Positions 1 to 32,016 of a stretch of 32,042 bases of DNA are shown here, piece by piece. Source of the DNA: Microcaldota archaeon (GTDB lineage: Archaea > Micrarchaeota > Micrarchaeia > Micrarchaeales > Micrarchaeaceae); NCBI GenBank assembly GCA_021785805.1, contig JAJYEJ010000005.1, forward strand, positions 1 through 32,042, in the 5' to 3' direction. The stretch's first letter is position 1; every line of letters begins with the position of its first letter. Position numbers and translations under genes: made by a program. Under the pieces are notes generated by a model that searched no databases, was not told the origin of the DNA, and worked only from the letters and a program-made list of their open reading frames with translations.

Positions 1-84
1 CGTGTTGGAATAACTGCTGTGGCGTAGCGCGGCCTGACAAGGCACACATATTCTGCCTGACTGTTCACCCAAGTATGCCGCTGG

Positions 85-165
85 AAGGCTTGTCCCGTAG
101 GGGTATAACCTGAAGCGCATCGCCCGAAGCACAAGATGCGCCACGGGCATATCTCCGACAAGAAG
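85..165. ncRNA. candidate structured RNA or DNA element, unidentified
   Basis: Nested complementary arms CTTGTC(89-94)/GACAAG(157-162), CCCGT(94-98)/ACGGG(143-147), GCGCATC(115-121)/GATGCGC(135-141), plus a small AGG..CCT hairpin; no convincing ORF covers it. Confidence 0.3.
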
Positions 166-179
166 GATTTAAATACAGT

Positions 180-790
180 TAAAGAACCCACACCTAAAGG
201 TGTGGGATTTCCTTCAGTTGAATAACTGTCTCTGACGCTGCGTATTGTCCTCCCGAACGTATCTCCTTACGATGTCTTCCGTGATGTTGCTAACGGAGCG
301 GTAGAAATATCCACGACCCCAGAAATGTCCTTTCCAATATCTCATTCTGAAGTTCGGATGTTTCCTGAACATTTCATACGAACTTCCTCCTTTCAAAAGT
401 CCGATTGCGGTCGAAACGCTCATTTCCGGAGGAAGAACTGCGACGACATAGACATGGTCCGGCATGACGCCAAGTTCCTTTATCAGTATCCCGTGTCGTT
501 CCGCAACAGACCGGATCGCGGATTCACAGCCGACAAAATGCGATTCTTTTCCCAATGTTTTGAACCTGTATTTCGTGACCCACTGCGGATGGTATTCGCT
601 GTATCCGACTGAACGCGAATTGCGAACGCAATTCGATAGGTTTTTATTTCCCAATTCAGAGTTTACACTATTCATACTATCGTCTGCGCGGCCCAATGGC
701 TGCGCTAAACGATATTTTCAGGGCAAAAATTTAGCGGCTTCTTTCATCCTCATGCGTAAACGCAAGGGATTTCAGAAGCCGATGGAAGTA
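180..790 (-). mobile_element. IS200/IS605-family insertion sequence (tnpA only) with both subterminal hairpins
   Basis: TnpA ORF flanked by hairpin CCCACACC-TAAA-GGTGTGGG (187-206) and hairpin TGCG-TAAA-CGCA (753-764); GGGATTTC occurs beside both (204-211, 766-773). Confidence 0.7.
214..696 (-). CDS. tnpA: IS200-like (Y1 HUH) transposase TnpA, possibly degenerate
   Basis: YHPQWVTKYR, GVMPDHVYVVAVLPPEMSVSTAIGLLKGGSSYEMFR, RYWKGHFWGRGYFYRSV and RRYV match the TnpA pattern; second His of the HUH motif reads Tyr (HVY). Confidence 0.8.
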   Translation of the reverse strand: MGRADDSMNSVNSELGNKNLSNCVRNSRSVGYSEYHPQWVTKYRFKTLGKESHFVGCESAIRSVAERHGILIKELGVMPDHVYVVAVLPPEMSVSTAIGLLKGGSSYEMFRKHPNFRMRYWKGHFWGRGYFYRSVSNITEDIVRRYVREDNTQRQRQLFN

Positions 791-968
791 TTAATATCTT
801 GTTTTCTTTATAGGCAGCTTATAAGTGCAGAATTGAACATAACAGTCTAGAAGTGGAGGTAAGTCCATAAAAACCATTTATATTTGATTACTTTATAGCT
901 TCCTGTGCATATTTTTCTAGAGAGGCTTAAAGGCTGTAAATATATAATCTTTCTATCAAGTTATTTCT

Positions 969-1346
969 ATGAAACTCTATTATGCTAAAATGTGGCTTAA
1001 AAAATATATCAAATACAACCACAACCACCTTGACGAGAATAAGCTCAACAGAGCGATAATTAATTTGTCACATAGAGTTTACAAATCCCATGGCGTAAAA
1101 GGACACAACGTAAGACAAAAGATCAGGATGCAGCTTGTCGAATACAGCAGAATTGAATTAGCAAAATATGGAACTAGCTTCGACCATCCACTAAGAATAA
1201 GTTACAAACAAAGACATAGAATTAGAGTATTTCCTTCAAGGAGAATGAACAGAGGCGTTATTTCATTTATTTTCTTCATACTCAAAGTTTTAGGGCTTAT
1301 TATTTTAGCATACATACTTTGGTATATTCTTACATATCACCTATGA
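969..1346 (+). CDS. hypothetical basic protein with C-terminal transmembrane helix
   Basis: Open frame; basic N-terminal region and hydrophobic C-terminus (GVISFIFFILKVLGLIILAYILWYILTYHL). Confidence 0.5.
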   Translation: MKLYYAKMWLKKYIKYNHNHLDENKLNRAIINLSHRVYKSHGVKGHNVRQKIRMQLVEYSRIELAKYGTSFDHPLRISYKQRHRIRVFPSRRMNRGVISFIFFILKVLGLIILAYILWYILTYHL

Positions 1347-1694
1347 CTAGTTGTAAGAAATTTTATCTTTCAAATAATTATCGGAGCTTGCCATAATTCC
1401 TGTAGGACTGCATAAAATAGGTGCAACCTCGGTAAAGCCATTCGATTGGGCTTCCGGAGGATACTGGAATTTTACTGCTACGCCTGCACCTACAACAGGG
1501 CCATAAGTCAAGTTTGAAGTAGTGTTAATTTCCGTCTGTAGCGTGTTTAGATCGCTGCATGTGAACAAGTTTGGATAGTAACTTTCACAACTCTCGCTAC
1601 CACTAAAGGAATAGCCACTATTCCATTCTACTATCCAACTATTTATGTCATTATAGCGTACCAGATTAATCTTACAACTTCCATAGTGAGGTTG
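1347..1694 (-). pseudogene. 5'-truncated remnant of a secreted/surface-type protein
   Basis: The listed 73-aa ORF extends in frame upstream without a start (..QPHYGSCKINLVRYNDINSWIVEWNSGYSFSGSESCESYYPNLFTCSDLNTLQ..) to an in-frame TGA at 1695-1697. Confidence 0.4.
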
Positions 1695-1699
1695 TCATT

Positions 1700-1828
1700 G
1701 TGAACTCACGGTCAAGAGTTGTAAGACTTTCAAGGCCTGCTATAGGTAAGAAAAAAAGGGCTGTGAAATGCGCCATTCCTGATGAAAACGGCATCGAGAA
1801 AATAAGAGCAGTGAAAGTAAACTGGTAA
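1700..1828 (+). CDS. short basic ORF (42 aa), uncertain
   Basis: GTG-started frame MNSRSRVVRLSRPAIGKKKRAVKCAIPDENGIEKIRAVKVNW, lying immediately before repeat unit A. Confidence 0.2.
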   Translation: MNSRSRVVRLSRPAIGKKKRAVKCAIPDENGIEKIRAVKVNW

Positions 1829-1840
1829 TAATACTTTCTA

Positions 1841-1955
1841 AAATATTCGAACTATATATCCCCACCTTCTTACTGTTCGAATATCCTTTTCTCTCTGTAA
1901 AAAAGCAAGCTGCGCCCTAATATTCGGGCAGGGGGTTCGAATACCGTTCTAAGAA
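1841..1955 (+). repeat. quasi-palindromic repeat unit A (word TTCGAA)
   Basis: Words TATTCGAAC (1844-1852), GTTCGAATAT (1875-1884), TATTCGGGC (1921-1929), GTTCGAATAC (1935-1944); aligns with units B and C including the TATAT..CCCC and CTTTT..GTAAAAAAG segments. Confidence 0.75.
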
Positions 1956-1961
1956 ATTTAT

Positions 1962-2088
1962 AGAAAATATGCACACTCTGTATCTCCACCTACTCATATA
2001 TGCACACCCTGCTTTCCCTCGTCAAAAAGGGCGTTCTCCTAAAAATATGCACACTAGGGGTTTGCACATCATTCTAGCATACTCTTAG
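1962..2088 (+). repeat. quasi-palindromic repeat unit B (word TGCACA)
   Basis: AAAATATGCACACT twice exactly (1964-1977, 2042-2055), TATATGCACACCC (1997-2009), GTTTGCACATC (2060-2070); shares ACATCATTCTAGCAT with unit C. Confidence 0.8.
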
Positions 2089-2155
2089 CACTAAAGCGTA
2101 TATAGCAGACGGATATCGCGGAAAGCTTAAATATTTCCTATAACGCGGAATAGGT

Positions 2156-2632
2156 GTGAATATAATGGTACAGAAAACATTGGAAGGTAATAAGGTTACG
2201 GAGAGGAGAAATATGTTAATGGCCATCCAGCCTAGATGGGCGGATGCAATTCTTTCTGGTGAAAAGAAATGGGAATACCGTAGAGTAACGATGAACGTTA
2301 AACCCGGAGCTAGGCTATTTTTATACGCAACAGGAGAACTTCATGCAATAGTTGGTGAGGTTGTAATAGAGAAAATTCTTAATGAACCAATAGAAGCTCT
2401 CATAGAGCACACAATGCGGGAAGTGCCAGAAACTCCAGAGCACCTCAGAGAGGCTTTTGCAGGGCATGAAATTGGACATGCATTAAAAATGAAAAACCCT
2501 ATAAGGTATAAAATGCCCTTTACGTTGGCTGCAATACGTGAACAAATACCTAGATTTGTTCCTCCACAAGGATTTTACTACGTAACAGAGGAAAACCCTT
2601 TGCTTACTATATTGCCACAGAAACGAAGCTAA
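2156..2632 (+). CDS. ASCH/PUA-like domain protein (COG4933-like)
   Basis: LMAIQPRWADAILSGEKKWEYRR.....LFLYATGELHAIVGEVVIEKI is typical of ASCH-domain proteins. Confidence 0.7.
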   Translation: MNIMVQKTLEGNKVTERRNMLMAIQPRWADAILSGEKKWEYRRVTMNVKPGARLFLYATGELHAIVGEVVIEKILNEPIEALIEHTMREVPETPEHLREAFAGHEIGHALKMKNPIRYKMPFTLAAIREQIPRFVPPQGFYYVTEENPLLTILPQKRS

Positions 2633-2644
2633 ATTGACGATTAG

Positions 2645-3766
2645 ATAGGTGGGAAAATAGAAGTTAGAAAAGATGCCCCAGTACAAAAACAGGTTCTTTA
2701 TCCGCCAGTTGTTATAGCTCACATAACAAAAGAGGTAACGGATCTTTTTGTGCCCAGGATGGCAGACAAAACAGAGATTCAGATGCACTATTCTGCCCAA
2801 ATGAACAGTCATCCGCATATGGGCACGGTATTGAGTTTGATGACTGCATTTGCATTAGGAGAACGCTTGGCGTCTAGATTCAAAGTTCCAGTAACACTTA
2901 AGTTTGAGGTATTGGAAAACGCTCCGAGAGAAAAAGTTGAAGCCAATGGTCTAGTCTACACGAAAATGCTATCTGATACGTACGTTGATGGGGTGCCAAT
3001 ATCCGAAATCCATTTACGATCTTTTATCCGCTTGCTTGAAGCGCTTAAGGAACGTTCTGGCATCAGTTATCAATTGTTAACTTATAGGCAATTTCAAGAG
3101 CTGCCTTTTGTAAGGAAGACATTGCTAGATATTTTGAATAGGGAAGAAGAATTTAGACCGATAATATCACCTTCAGAAGATCATTTAAGAGTAAGGTTTC
3201 CATGTCGGCAATGCGGATTTGCCGAAAAGAGCGGAGAAACTACTATCATAAAAGAAAGATCCGGAGAATATCATTTAGTATTAGAAAACGAGTGCTTCCA
3301 ACATGGAAAACAACAAATTGTATTAGCTCCTGACAATAAAGATTTTGTAGACATGAATACTCCACTAAGAAACGTTATAAAAGAGGCACTTTTCATTGAG
3401 GAGGCAAAAAGTAGAAAGGCGCTAGATTTAATGATAGATGGTGGCGATTGGGTGGCTATGGCAGATTTCGTAGTTTCAGAAGGCCTATCACGACTTGGCT
3501 ATTCTTATGTGGATAGACCCGCTAGGATATTTACACCGATAATAGAGGATTGGTCCGGTGCAAAGTTTTCAAAATCCGTCTATGTTCAACAGGGTACATA
3601 TGACTATTTACCGGGCGGCTTTCTTAATTTAATTGAGTTTGAAAGGGAATTTGGACAAGTGGGATTGGATAAACTTTGGAATGACGTAGTTTCTTGGGTT
3701 TCAGACCCAAAGAAACTATTTAGAAACTATAGCGCTGAATATCTTTTACAAGTACTAAGAAGCTAA
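2645..3766 (+). CDS. minimal class I aminoacyl-tRNA synthetase-like protein with zinc-finger-like insert
   Basis: HPHMG (HIGH-like) at the N-terminus, KFSKS (KMSKS-like) near the C-terminus, CRQCG..CFQHG between. ORF track starts at GTG 2750, but the frame is open back to 2645 with no ATG/GTG/TTG. Confidence 0.6.
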   Translation: MGGKIEVRKDAPVQKQVLYPPVVIAHITKEVTDLFVPRMADKTEIQMHYSAQMNSHPHMGTVLSLMTAFALGERLASRFKVPVTLKFEVLENAPREKVEANGLVYTKMLSDTYVDGVPISEIHLRSFIRLLEALKERSGISYQLLTYRQFQELPFVRKTLLDILNREEEFRPIISPSEDHLRVRFPCRQCGFAEKSGETTIIKERSGEYHLVLENECFQHGKQQIVLAPDNKDFVDMNTPLRNVIKEALFIEEAKSRKALDLMIDGGDWVAMADFVVSEGLSRLGYSYVDRPARIFTPIIEDWSGAKFSKSVYVQQGTYDYLPGGFLNLIEFEREFGQVGLDKLWNDVVSWVSDPKKLFRNYSAEYLLQVLRS

Positions 3767-3773
3767 AATAGCC

Positions 3774-4130
3774 GTGAATGATATGATACATGAGATGTCG
3801 CTAAATTCTGCACCATTTGAAAAAATAAAGAATGGGGAAAAATCCATAGAAATTCGCCTATATGACGAAAAAAGAAGAGGCGTAAAGATCGGTGACGTGA
3901 TAATTTTCAGCAAATTGCCAGAAAAAACAGAAAAAATAAGAGTGGAAGTTGTCGGACTGTCTATTTTCAAGTCTTTCCATGACCTTTTCTCAAATTTTGA
4001 AAAGTCAAAGTTTGGGCATGAACAGAATTTAAACATCGAAGAGCAGATTAATCGGCAGAGAGAACACTATACTGAGGATGAAGAACAACAGTACGGAGTA
4101 ATAGGTATGCATATCAAGCTTGTTAACTAA
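3774..4130 (+). CDS. ASCH domain-containing protein
   Basis: MSLNSAPFEKIKNGEKSIEIRLYDEKRRGVKIGDVIIFSKL..VEVVGLSIFKSFHDLF matches small ASCH proteins. Confidence 0.8.
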   Translation: MNDMIHEMSLNSAPFEKIKNGEKSIEIRLYDEKRRGVKIGDVIIFSKLPEKTEKIRVEVVGLSIFKSFHDLFSNFEKSKFGHEQNLNIEEQINRQREHYTEDEEQQYGVIGMHIKLVN

Positions 4131-4213
4131 GAATCCTATCCCTATAATCAAAAAAGGCAATTTGTCTCAAAAACTACACATAGAGGTATGTAGTCGATTC
4201 TAGAAGTTTTTAG

Positions 4214-4345
4214 TCCGATGTTCGGACTCTATATCCCTATCCTTTTCTGGTTCGAATATCGTTTTTCCTCAGTAAAAAGGAAGGGAAAGTTGCGATGTTC
4301 GGACGGGAGGTTCGAACATCATTCTAGCATTGTTTTAGCCTGCTG
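4214..4345 (+). repeat. quasi-palindromic repeat unit C (word TTCGGA/TTCGAA)
   Basis: GATGTTCGGAC (4217-4227), GGTTCGAATATCG (4249-4261), CGATGTTCGGACG (4293-4305), GTTCGAACATC (4310-4320); tail ACATCATTCTAGCAT (4316-4330) identical to unit B 2066-2080. Confidence 0.8.
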
Positions 4346-4358
4346 ACCAAGTGCAGCT

Positions 4359-5582
4359 CTATCTTTTCCCTAATCTTTTGTCTCTTTGTCTACGTAAGTA
4401 TTCGTGTGCTACTTCTTCTATAATCTTCGGATTGTTGAACGATTCTATCATTAATTCCTCTATCCTCTTTTCTGCTTCTTGTGCGTTCATTACTGTGCTT
4501 ATCTCTAGTCCATTGCCACATCTGTTGCAATATGTCGATTCCACTGGATTATCTAATCCGCATCTATAACATCTTTTTGCTTTTAACTTTGGTTCTGTGA
4601 TTATGCTTTCAACTTTCAATCCATTAGCCTGCATTATTGCTGAATCAACGTCTCTGCCACTCAAATGAACGTATGTAGCCGCCATATGGCTGTCTCCTGT
4701 CCAGCCAAAGTAAGCTTTTAGCTGCTGTTCTGTGAGCTTGTTTGCATAATATGATGCCCTGCTGTGTCTGAATAAGTGAGGATATATCCTCTTGTTTAGT
4801 TTGGCTTTCTTTGCTGTTACTTTCAGTATCTTTCTTATTGCAGCATAATTGATTTCCTTCTCTTTGTTTATCCATACGCCCATTCCCATCAGAATAAGGT
4901 CTTCTGGTTTCTTCAGTTTAATTAAATTCACGTATTGTGCAACATACGGAACACTAAAAAGTATAGGTATCTTTCTGGGTCCGGTCTTTCCTTTCACTGT
5001 TATATGCGCCGGATTGGTTTCAAGGCTTATGTCCTTTTTGCGTATGCTGAAGAGCTCCCCCATTCTGATGCCAGAATCGTATAACAGGGCAATAATCGCC
5101 TTATCACGCACGTTCATCGCGGTGTCAAGCATCTTATAGACATCTTCTTCTGTAAGCAAGTCCTCTGGCAGCACTCTCTCGCTCTTCTTTCCTGTTGTTT
5201 TAATCCAAACAACCTGTGGAGGATAGAAAAGGTCATCGCCTAGCAGGTGCTTGTAAAAAGCCTTTATTATCGTCCTGGTTCTTACCTTATGTTCGCTGGT
5301 GTATTCTGTCCCGTCTTCTCTTTTCGCAGCCTCAACCTGCGCCACTACGCACTCAAGATCCTTTTTGTCAGCCTTTTTCAGGTCAATTCTATTGCCAAGA
5401 ACCTTGAGAAGGAACTCTATTGAGTAAAGGTGCTTATGTATCGTCTTTACGTTCGCTCCACGAGCTTTCATGTGGTCTATGTAGTCCCTAACATACTCCT
5501 TGTTCTTCTTTAGAATATCGGGATTCGCGAAAATACGAGTGCATGCTGCGCATAGCTGTTGTCCATAATCCTTTATTGGCAC
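4359..5582 (-). CDS. tyrosine recombinase/integrase (XerA-like) with C-terminal zinc ribbon
   Basis: ALLYDSGIRMGELFSIRKKDI, HLFRHSRASYYANKL, GWTGDSHMAATYVHL (R..HxxR..Y) and CYRCGLDNPVESTYCNRCG. Confidence 0.9.
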   Translation of the reverse strand: MPIKDYGQQLCAACTRIFANPDILKKNKEYVRDYIDHMKARGANVKTIHKHLYSIEFLLKVLGNRIDLKKADKKDLECVVAQVEAAKREDGTEYTSEHKVRTRTIIKAFYKHLLGDDLFYPPQVVWIKTTGKKSERVLPEDLLTEEDVYKMLDTAMNVRDKAIIALLYDSGIRMGELFSIRKKDISLETNPAHITVKGKTGPRKIPILFSVPYVAQYVNLIKLKKPEDLILMGMGVWINKEKEINYAAIRKILKVTAKKAKLNKRIYPHLFRHSRASYYANKLTEQQLKAYFGWTGDSHMAATYVHLSGRDVDSAIMQANGLKVESIITEPKLKAKRCYRCGLDNPVESTYCNRCGNGLEISTVMNAQEAEKRIEELMIESFNNPKIIEEVAHEYLRRQRDKRLGKR

Positions 5583-5637
5583 GAGATATATAAATATATA
5601 TGTTAGGGGATTAACTGATTTTCTCGTGAATGTTTAG

Positions 5638-5709
5638 CGCCCGATGCAGGGATTGAACCTGCGACCTATTGGTTAACAGCCAATCGCTCTACCACTGAGC
5701 TAATCGGGC
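5638..5709 (-). tRNA. tRNA-Asn(GTT)
   Basis: Cloverleaf on minus strand GCCCGATTAGCTCAGTGGTAGAGCGATTGGCTGTTAACCAATAGGTCGCAGGTTCAATCCCTGCATCGGGCG; anticodon loop CTGTTAA. Confidence 0.93.
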
Positions 5710-9266: not shown

Positions 9267-10523
9267 ATGTCGTTTAAGTCCCAGTCCGCAATGGAATACC
9301 TCATGACATATGGGTGGGCGATTCTCATCGTAGCTGTAGTATTGGGCGCGCTCTACTCGCTGGGCATATTCAACGGGGCGAACTTCCTGGGAGGGGCATG
9401 CGTGGCGAGTACGGGGTACCTCTGCTCCAATCCTCTGCTTTCCACAAGTGGAACCCTTTCCTTCACATACGGGTACCAGGGGTCGAACGTCACGATAGTG
9501 GGATTCGCATGCACGAACACTAACACTGCACCGGCATCCTTCACGTCGTCAGGGTCACCAGACCTACAGCCAGGGCAGGAGGAGAGTGTTAGTGTATCGT
9601 GCACCCTTACTTCTAATTCGATCGGCTCGGACTTTAGCGGTTACTTGTGGGTCGAGTATGATCAGGCTGGACAGAGCGACCTTATCGCAAAGATAGCCAG
9701 CATAAGCACCACAGTTGCTACCGGAATCAGCGGAGGGGCAACATGTAGCGGCTCAGGAACTAATACCTTAACAGTGACAAATAGCCTCACAATATCATCT
9801 GTGCCGTATACGGCAAGTGTAAGTTATGCCATGTATGGAGGCGGCGGGGGACAAGGATGGGATAATACGACCTCAGGCTTTAATGGAAATTATATCACAG
9901 GTAGTTTTGCAGTCACGGCAGGTGATGCATTGGCTCTATACGCGGGCGGGGGAGGTGGAGGGGGTTGGTGCTCGGGAGGTGGGGGCGGAAGCGGCTGGTA
10001 TGGAGGAGGTGGAGGGGGCGCCGAAAGTAACGCAGGCGGAGGTGGGGGCGGAAGCTCGGCTATACTCGACAACGGCGCACTTGTACAGTACGCTAGCGGA
10101 GGACAAGGCGGATCTGGATATCAGAGCCCCCCGACAAATATTGAGGACGGAGGTGGGGGCGGATCCGATGTGGGTGGCAGCGGAGGGACCGGCACATTCG
10201 CCAACGGAGCCGCAGGATCAGGTTATAAAGGAGGGGCAGGCGGAGGCTGTGGAGGGGACGACGGAGGGAATGGAGGGAATGGAGGCATGGGCGGAAGCCA
10301 AGGCTCCAACGCCATCCCTGGAGGAGGGGGAGGAGGTTATGGTGCAGGTGGAGGAAGCAATGGTGGCGCAGGAGGATCGAATGGTGGGAATGGTGGAGGA
10401 AGCTATGGTGGCGCCGGAGGTGACTCCGGTAGTGGCGGCAGCGCCCCCGGAGAAATTGGCGGTGGCGGCGGAAGTGGAGGCAAGATAACCCTCACATGGT
10501 CCGGATCCTCTTGCCCGATATGA
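9267..10523 (+). CDS. pilin-like N-terminal module fused to Gly-rich C-terminal domain
   Basis: QSAMEYLMTYGWAILIVAVVLGALYSLGIFNGANFLGGACVA.. then long (G)n-rich region. Confidence 0.8.
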   Translation: MSFKSQSAMEYLMTYGWAILIVAVVLGALYSLGIFNGANFLGGACVASTGYLCSNPLLSTSGTLSFTYGYQGSNVTIVGFACTNTNTAPASFTSSGSPDLQPGQEESVSVSCTLTSNSIGSDFSGYLWVEYDQAGQSDLIAKIASISTTVATGISGGATCSGSGTNTLTVTNSLTISSVPYTASVSYAMYGGGGGQGWDNTTSGFNGNYITGSFAVTAGDALALYAGGGGGGGWCSGGGGGSGWYGGGGGGAESNAGGGGGGSSAILDNGALVQYASGGQGGSGYQSPPTNIEDGGGGGSDVGGSGGTGTFANGAAGSGYKGGAGGGCGGDDGGNGGNGGMGGSQGSNAIPGGGGGGYGAGGGSNGGAGGSNGGNGGGSYGGAGGDSGSGGSAPGEIGGGGGSGGKITLTWSGSSCPI

Positions 10524-12003: not shown

Positions 12004-13374
12004 ATGACATATGAAGTACTGCAGGGCCAAAGCGCCATGGAGTATCTCATGACATACGGATGGGCCATTCTCATAGTGGCAGTGGTCCTGGGGGCGCTCT
12101 ATTCTCTGGGCATATTCAACGGCTCAAATTTTCTTGGAGGGACGTGCGTAGCGGCTCCTGGTTACCTCTGCAGCAATCCGCTCCTGGCCACTGACGGTAC
12201 GCTTTCCCTAACATACGGGTATCAGGGACCGAATGTCACCGTAGTGGGATTCGCCTGCACCAACACTACCACTGCGCCCTCGTCATTCGCATCGTCAGGG
12301 TCCTCTAACCTTGAACCTGGACAAGAGGAGAGCGTAAGCGTATCGTGCCCTCTCCCTTCAGGAGCCACGATTGGGACCCCTTACTCCGGATACCTCTGGG
12401 TGGAGTATGACCAGGCGGGACAGAGCAATCTGATAGCGAGGTTCGCGACTGCAAGGCTTACGGCTTCGGTTGCAGCTGGAGTCGATATGTACATGTACGT
12501 GGCTGCCGCCAATTATATCTACGTAGTTTCGACTGCCAACTACCTGATAACGGATACGATTCCGGTTGGAGCGCCGCTTAGCAACATGTATCTTGATAAG
12601 AGCGATGGTATGGCATATGGTTATTATGAAGATAACATATATACGATAGATACGTCAAAGAATGAGGTAACCAATGTTTTAACTATGCCTTCTCAGGTCC
12701 AGCAGATGGCTGTGGACCCGTCAGGCGGCGAGATTTTTACTGTTTCAAATGCCGGGAACGAGCTGTATGCGATCTCCGTCTCGAATTACGCGATTATCGG
12801 CAGCAAGAGCATAGTGCGGCCATTTTCCGTAGCTGTGGACCCGAATGGTGATTATGTCTACGTATCCGCAGGAGGATCGTGCGAGTCGATGGGCGGCAGC
12901 GTATATGTCTTGTCCTCTTCCTCGTTTGCGACATTGAACACGATTACGATGTCATTTCTAAACTGTCCTGTCGAAACGATCGTTGAACCGAATTCCGAGA
13001 ACCTCTATATTACAGAGAATGGCTGCCCATCCGGCCATATCATATCGCTTTCCAATGACGTAGTGCTTTCACCCTCGCCGCAACTATGCGGAGGTGAAGG
13101 GCTTGGGACTTCCATATCGCCAGATAGCGAATATCTATATGCTGGAATCGCTAGTTCTTTCAACAAGGTCTTTGTTAGCAATTACATTGCGCAGTCGGTA
13201 GCTGAGGCATCCGATAATCTTTTACAGTCCGCAATCTCGCCGAATGGCAATACCATAGCGTTTAGTGACTGGGCCCATAACGTCGTTGATTTCTATAATA
13301 CATCCACAACAGACCAGGTTGCACAGGTTACCATGCCTACGACACCGATGGGGATAGTCTACGTCACTAAATAG
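12004..13374 (+). CDS. pilin-like N-terminal module fused to YVTN-type beta-propeller domain
   Basis: QSAMEYLMTYGWAILIVAVVLGALYSLGIFNGSNFLGGTCVAAPGYLCSNPL then repeats such as QQMAVDPSGGEIFTVS, SVAVDPNGDYVYVSAGG, SISPDSEYLYAG, AISPNGNTIAFS. Confidence 0.85.
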   Translation: MTYEVLQGQSAMEYLMTYGWAILIVAVVLGALYSLGIFNGSNFLGGTCVAAPGYLCSNPLLATDGTLSLTYGYQGPNVTVVGFACTNTTTAPSSFASSGSSNLEPGQEESVSVSCPLPSGATIGTPYSGYLWVEYDQAGQSNLIARFATARLTASVAAGVDMYMYVAAANYIYVVSTANYLITDTIPVGAPLSNMYLDKSDGMAYGYYEDNIYTIDTSKNEVTNVLTMPSQVQQMAVDPSGGEIFTVSNAGNELYAISVSNYAIIGSKSIVRPFSVAVDPNGDYVYVSAGGSCESMGGSVYVLSSSSFATLNTITMSFLNCPVETIVEPNSENLYITENGCPSGHIISLSNDVVLSPSPQLCGGEGLGTSISPDSEYLYAGIASSFNKVFVSNYIAQSVAEASDNLLQSAISPNGNTIAFSDWAHNVVDFYNTSTTDQVAQVTMPTTPMGIVYVTK

Positions 13375-30600: not shown

Positions 30601-32016
30601 TCAGTCGTACACACAGCTCGGATTAGATACTGGAGAATAGTAATTCGCTTGCTGCACCCAATTAATGACAGAGTTCCCGGATAGTGCAGCTACATACACG
30701 TTAGCGGTTGTTGACGTGTCTGTCTGCCCTCCGACGCAATACAGGTAATTGTTATTGGCGTTACAGCTTACTAGCCATATCTTGGTTGGATAATTGGTAG
30801 TCTGTTCCCATCCGAGCACCGACCCGTCCGAGACTTTAGTGCTGTATACGAAAGGCACGACAAAATTGGGATAATACGGCCACCACCCACCTATGCAATA
30901 GATATATCCGTTTGACGCTACACAGTCGTCGTATCCCATCGGCTCCACGTAATTGGTCGTAGGCTGCCATGGTCCTACAGTAGTCCCAGAGAGCTTTGCC
31001 GAATAGACAGATGCGGTGAAACCTGAAGCGGTATATCCGCCTATGCAATATATGTACCCTCCTGATATGGTACAGCTTTGCAGTCTTGTCGGGATAGGAT
31101 AATTTCCAGAGGTTGATTGGACATGCCACCCTCCAACAACAGAACCTCCGGATAGCTGAGCAGAGATTACGGCGTTTGTATCTCCGCTCGGAGTCGTTCC
31201 GCCCACGCAATAGGCGTACTCTCCGGATGCAGCGCAGCTTTGTTGTGCGATTTGGATAGGGTAACTAGTAGTGGCAGTCCATTGACCTACAGACGTTCCA
31301 GAGACTTGCGACGAACTTACCAGTGCGGAAGTACCTCCACCACCTATGCAATAGATGTAGTTATTGGACAAAACGCACTGCTGACCATAGATTGATGACA
31401 AAGAGGCCGTAGCAGGAGACCATGCACCGATAGAAGATCCCGATACTATTACCGAATTGACTGTATTTCCCCCTACAGAGTTTACGCAGTAGAGATAATC
31501 ATTTGCTTCTGTGGACGCTGACGTCCTTATTGTCGCGAATTTAGCGATCAGGTCGCTCTGTCCCGCCTGGTCATACTCCACCCAGAGGTATCCGGAGTAA
31601 GGGGTTCCGATCGTGGCTCCTGAAGGGAGAGGGCACGAGACGCTTACGCTCTCCTCCTGCCCAGGTTCAAGGTTAGAGGACCCTGATGGTGCGAATGACG
31701 AGGGCGCAGTGGTAGTGTTGGTGCAGGCGAATCCCACTACTGTGACATTGGGTCCCTGGTATCCGTATGTTAGGGAAAGCGTACCATCTGTGGCCATCAG
31801 CGGATTGCTGCAGAGGTATCCAGGAGCTGCGACACACGTCCCTCCAAGAAAATTGGCGCCGTTGAATATACCCATGGAATAGAGCGCACCCAGGACAACC
31901 GCCACTATGAGGATCGCCCATCCGTATGTCATGAGATACTCCATGGCGGACTGGCCATGCAAGGAGTTTCCCTCCCTGTTTCCTTGAGAACCGTACATGG
32001 ATACGTATATTCTCAC
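30601..32016 (-). CDS. pilin-like N-terminal module fused to Kelch-like beta-propeller
   Basis: QSAMEYLMTYGWAILIVAVVLGALYSMGIFNGANFLGGTCVAAPGYLCSNPL; repeated blades (SC....YIYCIGG...V.SA.LSG.SVG.W..TTNYP). Confidence 0.88.
   Translation of the reverse strand: MRIYVSMYGSQGNREGNSLHGQSAMEYLMTYGWAILIVAVVLGALYSMGIFNGANFLGGTCVAAPGYLCSNPLMATDGTLSLTYGYQGPNVTVVGFACTNTTTAPSSFAPSGSSNLEPGQEESVSVSCPLPSGATIGTPYSGYLWVEYDQAGQSDLIAKFATIRTSASTEANDYLYCVNSVGGNTVNSVIVSGSSIGAWSPATASLSSIYGQQCVLSNNYIYCIGGGGTSALVSSSQVSGTSVGQWTATTSYPIQIAQQSCAASGEYAYCVGGTTPSGDTNAVISAQLSGGSVVGGWHVQSTSGNYPIPTRLQSCTISGGYIYCIGGYTASGFTASVYSAKLSGTTVGPWQPTTNYVEPMGYDDCVASNGYIYCIGGWWPYYPNFVVPFVYSTKVSDGSVLGWEQTTNYPTKIWLVSCNANNNYLYCVGGQTDTSTTANVYVAALSGNSVINWVQQANYYSPVSNPSCVYD

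Follow-up and report, generated by a model that had tools for sequence, protein, structure and literature searches.

A family of ~120-base units, capable of folding back on themselves and located at the borders of accessory genes, is described here for the first time, with 18 units found in six species of Micrarchaeota. The units are best explained, with a probability of roughly 0.4, as folded recombination sites working like the attC sites of integrons or attP(+) of CTXphi, and this reading is preferred because it covers the pairing, the shared words, the fixed geometry and the position at gene borders together. The stretch of DNA analysed (the window; 32,042 nucleotides) is the whole contig C16 of a 0.9-Mb Micrarchaeota genome (G000).

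On the plus strand, each unit consists of R'' (word 1), CTATAT with a C-rich stretch, L'' (word 2), an apical segment, L' (word 3), GGGG, R' (word 4) and a tail of the form CTAAGA-N-TTTTAG, which can make a small hairpin. The limits and the strand given for the units come from the covariance models; in plus-strand reading, R' is on the right-hand side. The units and the genes between them are as follows.

1838–1955, minus strand: unit A, type 1 (R'' 1843–1852, L'' 1875–1884, L' 1920–1929, R' 1935–1944; tail hairpin 1947–1966), scoring 112 bits in cmsearch with a model of which A is a part.
1962–2080, minus strand: unit B, type 1, with TGCACA-type words (R'' 1967–1976, L'' 2000–2009, L' 2045–2054, R' 2060–2069; tail 2072–2091), found at E = 6.7e-9 with model R2, built without B, and also with a covariance model including B.
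2156–4130, plus strand: gene segment between B and D/C, with an ASCH gene (2156–2632), a 338-aa ORF (2750–3766) and a second ASCH gene (3774–4130).
About 4166–4206, minus strand: remnant D, the right half (L'-R'-tail) of a fourth unit, immediately left of C, in the position that A has relative to B.
4213–4330, minus strand: unit C, type 1 (R'' 4218–4227, L'' 4250–4259, L' 4295–4304, R' 4310–4319; tail 4322–4341), found at E = 4.3e-5 with model R2, built without C, and also with a covariance model including C.

The initial annotation had described A, B and C as homologous from end to end. Their alignment over the full length and nhmmer searches of the window (query A to C at E = 6e-12; query B to C at 2e-4 and to A at 6e-4) bore this out, with the four words at fixed spacing and the right-hand tail hairpins reaching to about 1967, 2092 and 4342. 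Relatives of unit A in genome G037 were found independently by nhmmer. Pairwise global identities of the units were rejected as evidence, as gaps inflate the background and render them uninformative. The local alignment scores of D against three units (B, G086_3 and G075a) were matched by 0–1 of 300 shuffles, and D starts where a 97% match of the gene segment to another genome, G055, stops (4163). Tandem pairs with a period of 123–125 bp are formed by A and B, by a pair in G037:C13 and by two pairs in G086:C11; with half-unit D immediately adjoining C on the left, the window can also be read as a pair, genes and a second pair.

A profile made from A, B and C detected five more units at two other integrase loci of G037, the closest unit-bearing relative, filed as Candidatus Micrarchaeaceae archaeon clean1830. 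The covariance model R1, made from the eight type-1 units of the window and G037, found units in G086, G065, G077 and G075. Model R2, which contains only the units of these four genomes, recovered the window units, with E-values as low as 7e-9, and brought in further units of G077 and G086. Thus, the search of relatives proposed by the initial annotation yielded further copies, amounting to 18 units within one archaeal order and a partial match in a seventh species, G048. Elsewhere in the phylum (303 genomes), the covariance models gave only weak, chance-like hits, none of them convincing; those in G174 and G223 were rejected as chance when read by eye. Viral contigs contained no unit (searched with one pattern) and no integrase relative, and the duplex target TTCGRR..GTTCGAA occurred only twice outside the units in the chromosome, within the control count. 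No Rfam family exceeded the gathering threshold for the units, so a known RNA family was rejected as their identity, in keeping with the earlier statement that no named family has this architecture. The literature search found no paper linking Micrarchaeota with integrons or tRNA integrases.

Two architectures were distinguished. Type 1 (window and G037) has spacers of 22–23/34–35/5, constant in all eight units, and type 2 (G086, G065, G075 and G077) has spacers of 20–22/27–28/12–13. Both of them (22/35/5 and 21/28/13) sum to about 62, so that L' is shifted by ~8 nt within a constant outer frame.

The pairing of the arms was read off unit C as previously claimed, with 11 pairs between 4217–4227 and 4310–4320 and 12 pairs between 4250–4261 and 4293–4304 (G.T counted). 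Across the type 1 alignment, 18 cells were changed on both sides versus 8.4 in shuffles (0/500), and across the type 2 alignment 19 versus 8.4 (0/500), the shuffles being a control that ignores relatedness. Compensatory change for both R''/R' and L''/L' was above shuffles and slid controls in both alignments. Because of the relatedness, the agreement of two independent alignments and the permutation within types are the stronger evidence. At the level of words (13 gap-free units, words set by hand), identity was significant against within-position shuffles for R''/R' (p = 0.0002) and L''/L' (p = 0.0006), and also when permuted within type (p = 0.0024 and p = 0.003, respectively). The complementarity continues beyond the words into CCCC/GGGG and an apical TTTT/AAAA stem, and two unpaired segments, the ATATAGA bulge and the apical GACGAGRGAAA, are conserved. 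Selection on the fold and/or on a word-binding protein, as proposed at the outset, is the natural reading.

The words of the direct pair R''/L' were also alike beyond the demands of pairing (p = 0.0008), so a word-binding protein is likely to act on the units in any case. It had been claimed that all four words change in concert within a unit; this holds for A, B and C and fails elsewhere, for example in C7_1, where the R pair and the L pair differ. What is conserved across all units is the pairing together with a loose word consensus, and not strict identity of four words. The four words could instead be the sites of one protein binding double-stranded DNA, such as a regulator, a replication or partition protein or one using accessory arm sites, and the palindromic look would then come from one word in alternating orientation. 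Such a multi-site element would agree with the loose consensus common to all four words and with the likeness of the direct R''/L' copies within a unit. We consider it rather unlikely, as the nested partners match best, complementarity is found outside the words, and L' shifts between the types while the outer positions remain fixed.

The mismatches were examined for the strand on which a fold would form. The words of unit B, TGCACA-type at all four positions as described before, all read in one direction, and hence its pairs are A.C if the plus strand folds and G.T if the minus strand does (9 G.T and 1 A.C on the latter). The strand argument drawn from B did not extend to the family: the minus-strand mismatches of all units were 47 G.T versus 34 A.C (p = 0.18), those of the R and L arms alone were 25 versus 12 (p = 0.047), and in type 2 A.C was as common as G.T (19 to 17, by summing). 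The mismatch types give no clear pointer to one strand, and the near balance over all units is as expected for a double-stranded binding element, in which the strands are equivalent. In a functional RNA, a stronger avoidance of A.C would be expected, and folding in DNA rather than RNA is therefore weakly favoured. If the unit and its tail hairpin were a small RNA or an untranslated element made from the minus strand, the conserved unpaired bulge and apical segment, the fold with its compensatory changes and the lean of the R and L arms to G.U on that strand would be accounted for. A structured RNA of this kind is nevertheless improbable, given the frequency of A.C in type 2, the lack of a match in Rfam and the neighbouring genes, which occur on either strand and either side and leave no consistent position for a leader or 3'-UTR.

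Three compact gene segments lie between directly repeated units with 0–63 bp of non-coding DNA on each side, in the window, in G086:C11 and in G037:C7, and the suggested location of copies at the borders of accessory gene segments was therefore seen at three places. In the window, a match to the PADLOC candidate PDC-M11B was obtained for the first ASCH gene (9e-23), and the 338-aa ORF on the plus strand has no match in Pfam or PDB. By eye, this ORF has HIGH-like (HPHMG) and KMSKS-like (AKFSKS) motifs and CxxC, recalling the core of a class I aminoacyl-tRNA synthetase, and its start may lie upstream of the listed GTG. The segment of G086 encodes a dCMP deaminase (a SacI-like protein and a D12 methyltransferase are encoded outside it), and that of G037:C7 an Asp/Glu racemase. 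DUF3800 genes, toxin-antitoxin-like genes and other accessory genes were found near single units, the toxin-antitoxin and AbiE-like readings being made by eye from the sequences. The genes sit on either strand relative to the unit, and each of the three arrays has one segment. A lone unit in G077:C5 (L087 274–403) directly follows a leucyl-tRNA synthetase gene, and no mobile gene is seen nearby. The window also has three related surface-protein genes (9267–10523, 12004–13374 and 30601–32016) with a common N-terminal MEYLMTYGWAILIVAVVLGALYS segment, the second and third being 93% identical in DNA over 394 bp and in opposite orientation.

The content next to the units differs at one orthologous locus. 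This locus is the tRNA-Asn, which has a neighbour gene conserved across the family; there, the units of G000 enclose a gene segment, whereas the two units of G037 directly adjoin each other. In the assembly of G075, contig C1 opens with 197 bases that also occur at the ends of C44 and C26 (positions L106 start, L070 1–215 and L071 1–206), and these two contigs have different units, different genes and unrelated sequence beyond R''. As adjoining contigs of this assembly usually overlap by 196–197 bp at their ends, the sharing represents a fork with two alternative left neighbours of C1, which may be due to strain differences or two genomic copies. The shared identity begins right of the tail and not at R'. 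Furthermore, 4 of 10 unit contigs end <300 bp from the unit, always on the tail side (P = 0.0002 to 0.002 with the fork counted once, for a cut-off picked after seeing the data, and hairpins can also disturb sequencing). In G055, which belongs to another genus, positions 3523–4163 of the window recur at 97% identity beside the same tRNA-Asn, without an integrase and without a unit (L200, G055:C7, 11983–12622, where the 338-aa ORF is truncated); to judge from its sequence, this copy is a recent transfer. The genes of the window segment are also present one at a time in several other genomes.

An IS200/IS605-type Y1 transposase gene (214–696, minus strand; Pfam 4.9e-28) lies 1.1 kb left of A inside the presumed tRNA-Asn element. 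Were the units miniature transposable elements inserted by an unrelated transposase, they would only mark the borders of islands, and their tandem pairs, their patchy distribution, the single copies between core genes (such as that after the leucyl-tRNA synthetase gene) and the presence of the Y1 gene would fit. This is very improbable, since units within one genome are strongly diverged and yet keep their pairing, unlike recent MITE copies, and no target duplications were seen in those unit flanks that were inspected by eye.

The features on the integrase side of the array, and the presumed far end of the integrated element, are given below.

99–131, plus strand: 33 bp, candidate far end of the integrated element, 94% identical to the sequence abutting the 3' end of the G055 tRNA-Asn.
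4343–4357, no strand: CTGACCAAGTGCAGC, separating the integrase stop from the unit nearest to the integrase.
4359–5582, minus strand: Xer-like tyrosine recombinase with a C-terminal zinc ribbon, of a tRNA-targeting family, without an IntI-specific insert.
5637–5709, minus strand: tRNA-Asn, presumed integration site, 55 bp from the integrase.

The recombinase has the catalytic residues of tyrosine recombinases (read by eye). Its best profile match is archaeal XerA, below the curated XerA cut-off, and XerA was also the first match of a model of moderate confidence. The IntI model TIGR02249 scored 45.6 bits against a cut-off of 265 and covered only residues 36–199; at precisely this place, about 37 additional residues are present in the IntI structure 2a3v (165 to 239 versus profile 184 to 221), whereas XerD aligns without an insertion. 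The recombinase was therefore rejected as an integron integrase. In ~26 of the 36 family loci, a tRNA lies 55–150 bp upstream of the integrase on the same strand, with one more at 351 bp, and the place of the recombinase in the window is explained by integration at tRNA-Asn, as the family targets tRNA genes. Within window positions 1–5630, no close copy of the tRNA-Asn 3' end was found, and 99–131 matches the G055 tRNA-Asn border.

The tie between the units and the adjacent recombinase suggested earlier turned out to be weak. Units are present at the 3' side of the integrase in only 3 of the 36 family loci, the three not making up a single clade, and a bond of the unit array to the integrase family was rejected because most relatives, including sisters, have no adjoining units; a strong fold near a sister integrase (L036) does not look like a unit. 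CTGACCAAGTGCAGC is nearly identical in two sister integrase loci of G037, and CTGACCARGTGCAGC between unit and integrase is conserved in all three unit-bearing integrase loci, so that unit and integrase share a history there, which does not show joint working. Among the other unit-bearing genomes, no tyrosine recombinase was detectable in G065 and G077, and the one found in G075 is not near a unit; these genomes have a completeness of 88–93%. The adjacent integrase is a possible user of the units.

The architecture of the units was compared with that of known systems. Like the attC sites of integrons, bacterial or archaeal (PMC9668308), the units have R'', L'', L' and R' in alternating orientation within an imperfect palindrome of similar length, outer and inner arms that pair with covariation, a bulge on the R''/L'' side and a position on both sides of compact accessory genes. 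They differ from attC in the long R''-L'' spacer, the conserved apical segment and the extra tail hairpin, and their setting differs from that of integrons in having no IntI, gene segments in either orientation and an integrase whose 3' end faces the array. The integron R box has the consensus RYYYAAC / GTTRRRY. The R' of the units reads GTTCGAA, GTTTGCA, GTTTGGA, GTGTGGA, GTGTGTA and similar instead, type 1 having C or T as the fourth base and type 2 departing from the consensus at the third or fourth position. The integrase of integrons carries an IntI-specific additional domain (PMC9668308, PMC7790495). As neither the R-box consensus nor the IntI insert was found, the units are not members of the integron attC family.

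The attP(+) of CTXphi is a forked hairpin formed from attP1 and attP2 and used by Xer recombinases (PMC3089051), which are enzymes without the IntI insert (PMC7790495). It resembles the units in that two core sites, inverted and separated by ~90 bp, pair to give the forked hairpin, their central regions being unequal, whereas attP(+) has one use, the integration of a single-stranded phage genome, and the units are multiple, chromosomal, gene-bordering and unrelated in sequence. The window recombinase itself resembles the archaeal tRNA-targeting integrases and XerA in its profile match, its Xer-type length and its closeness to tRNA-Asn, and departs from them in the zinc ribbon, the score below the XerA cut-off and the scarcity of units beside its relatives. 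In Xer-mobilised pdif modules, too, accessory genes have inverted recombinase words at their borders; a pdif site is a 28-bp duplex, whereas the units are 120 nt long and foldable.

As folded recombination sites, the units would act when one strand folds and R''/R' and L''/L' pair into two short duplex arms. The CCCC/GGGG spacer stem, the conserved bulge on the R''/L'' side and the conserved apical segment would complete a core site for an enzyme of the tyrosine-recombinase type, and gene segments could be gained, lost or exchanged beside a unit. We infer the folding of the DNA, the cleavage at the units by a recombinase and the position of the crossover. Several findings count against this reading. 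An attC-like crossover inside R' would mix R' halves between neighbours, whereas in A and B, neighbours with different words, each R' still matches the R'' of its own unit. Known tyrosine recombinases have a core of 6–8 bp, for which the type-2 R'-L' spacing of 12–13 is ill-suited. Also against it stand the G055 locus with nearly identical gene DNA at the same tRNA and no unit, the G075 identity that starts right of the tail rather than at R', the tRNA targeting that accounts for the neighbouring integrase and its family, and the distribution of tyrosine recombinases, with none detectable in G065 and G077, one not near a unit in G075 and sister integrases lacking units. It is doubtful, though conceivable, that the units belong to a gene-cassette system of archaea independent of integrons, in which attC-like folded sites and an enzyme without the IntI insert, possibly an Xer-like integrase, would shuffle defence-type genes in Micrarchaeota.

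Folded single-strand recombination sites are known from integrons, in which the integrase carries a special insert, and from a phage using borrowed Xer. Even if the units do not recombine, they constitute an unnamed conserved element with a searchable covariance model. If the preferred reading is true, the capture of cassettes through folded DNA would have evolved more than once, also without the IntI insert, and would provide a route for gene gain in the tiny genomes of DPANN archaea.
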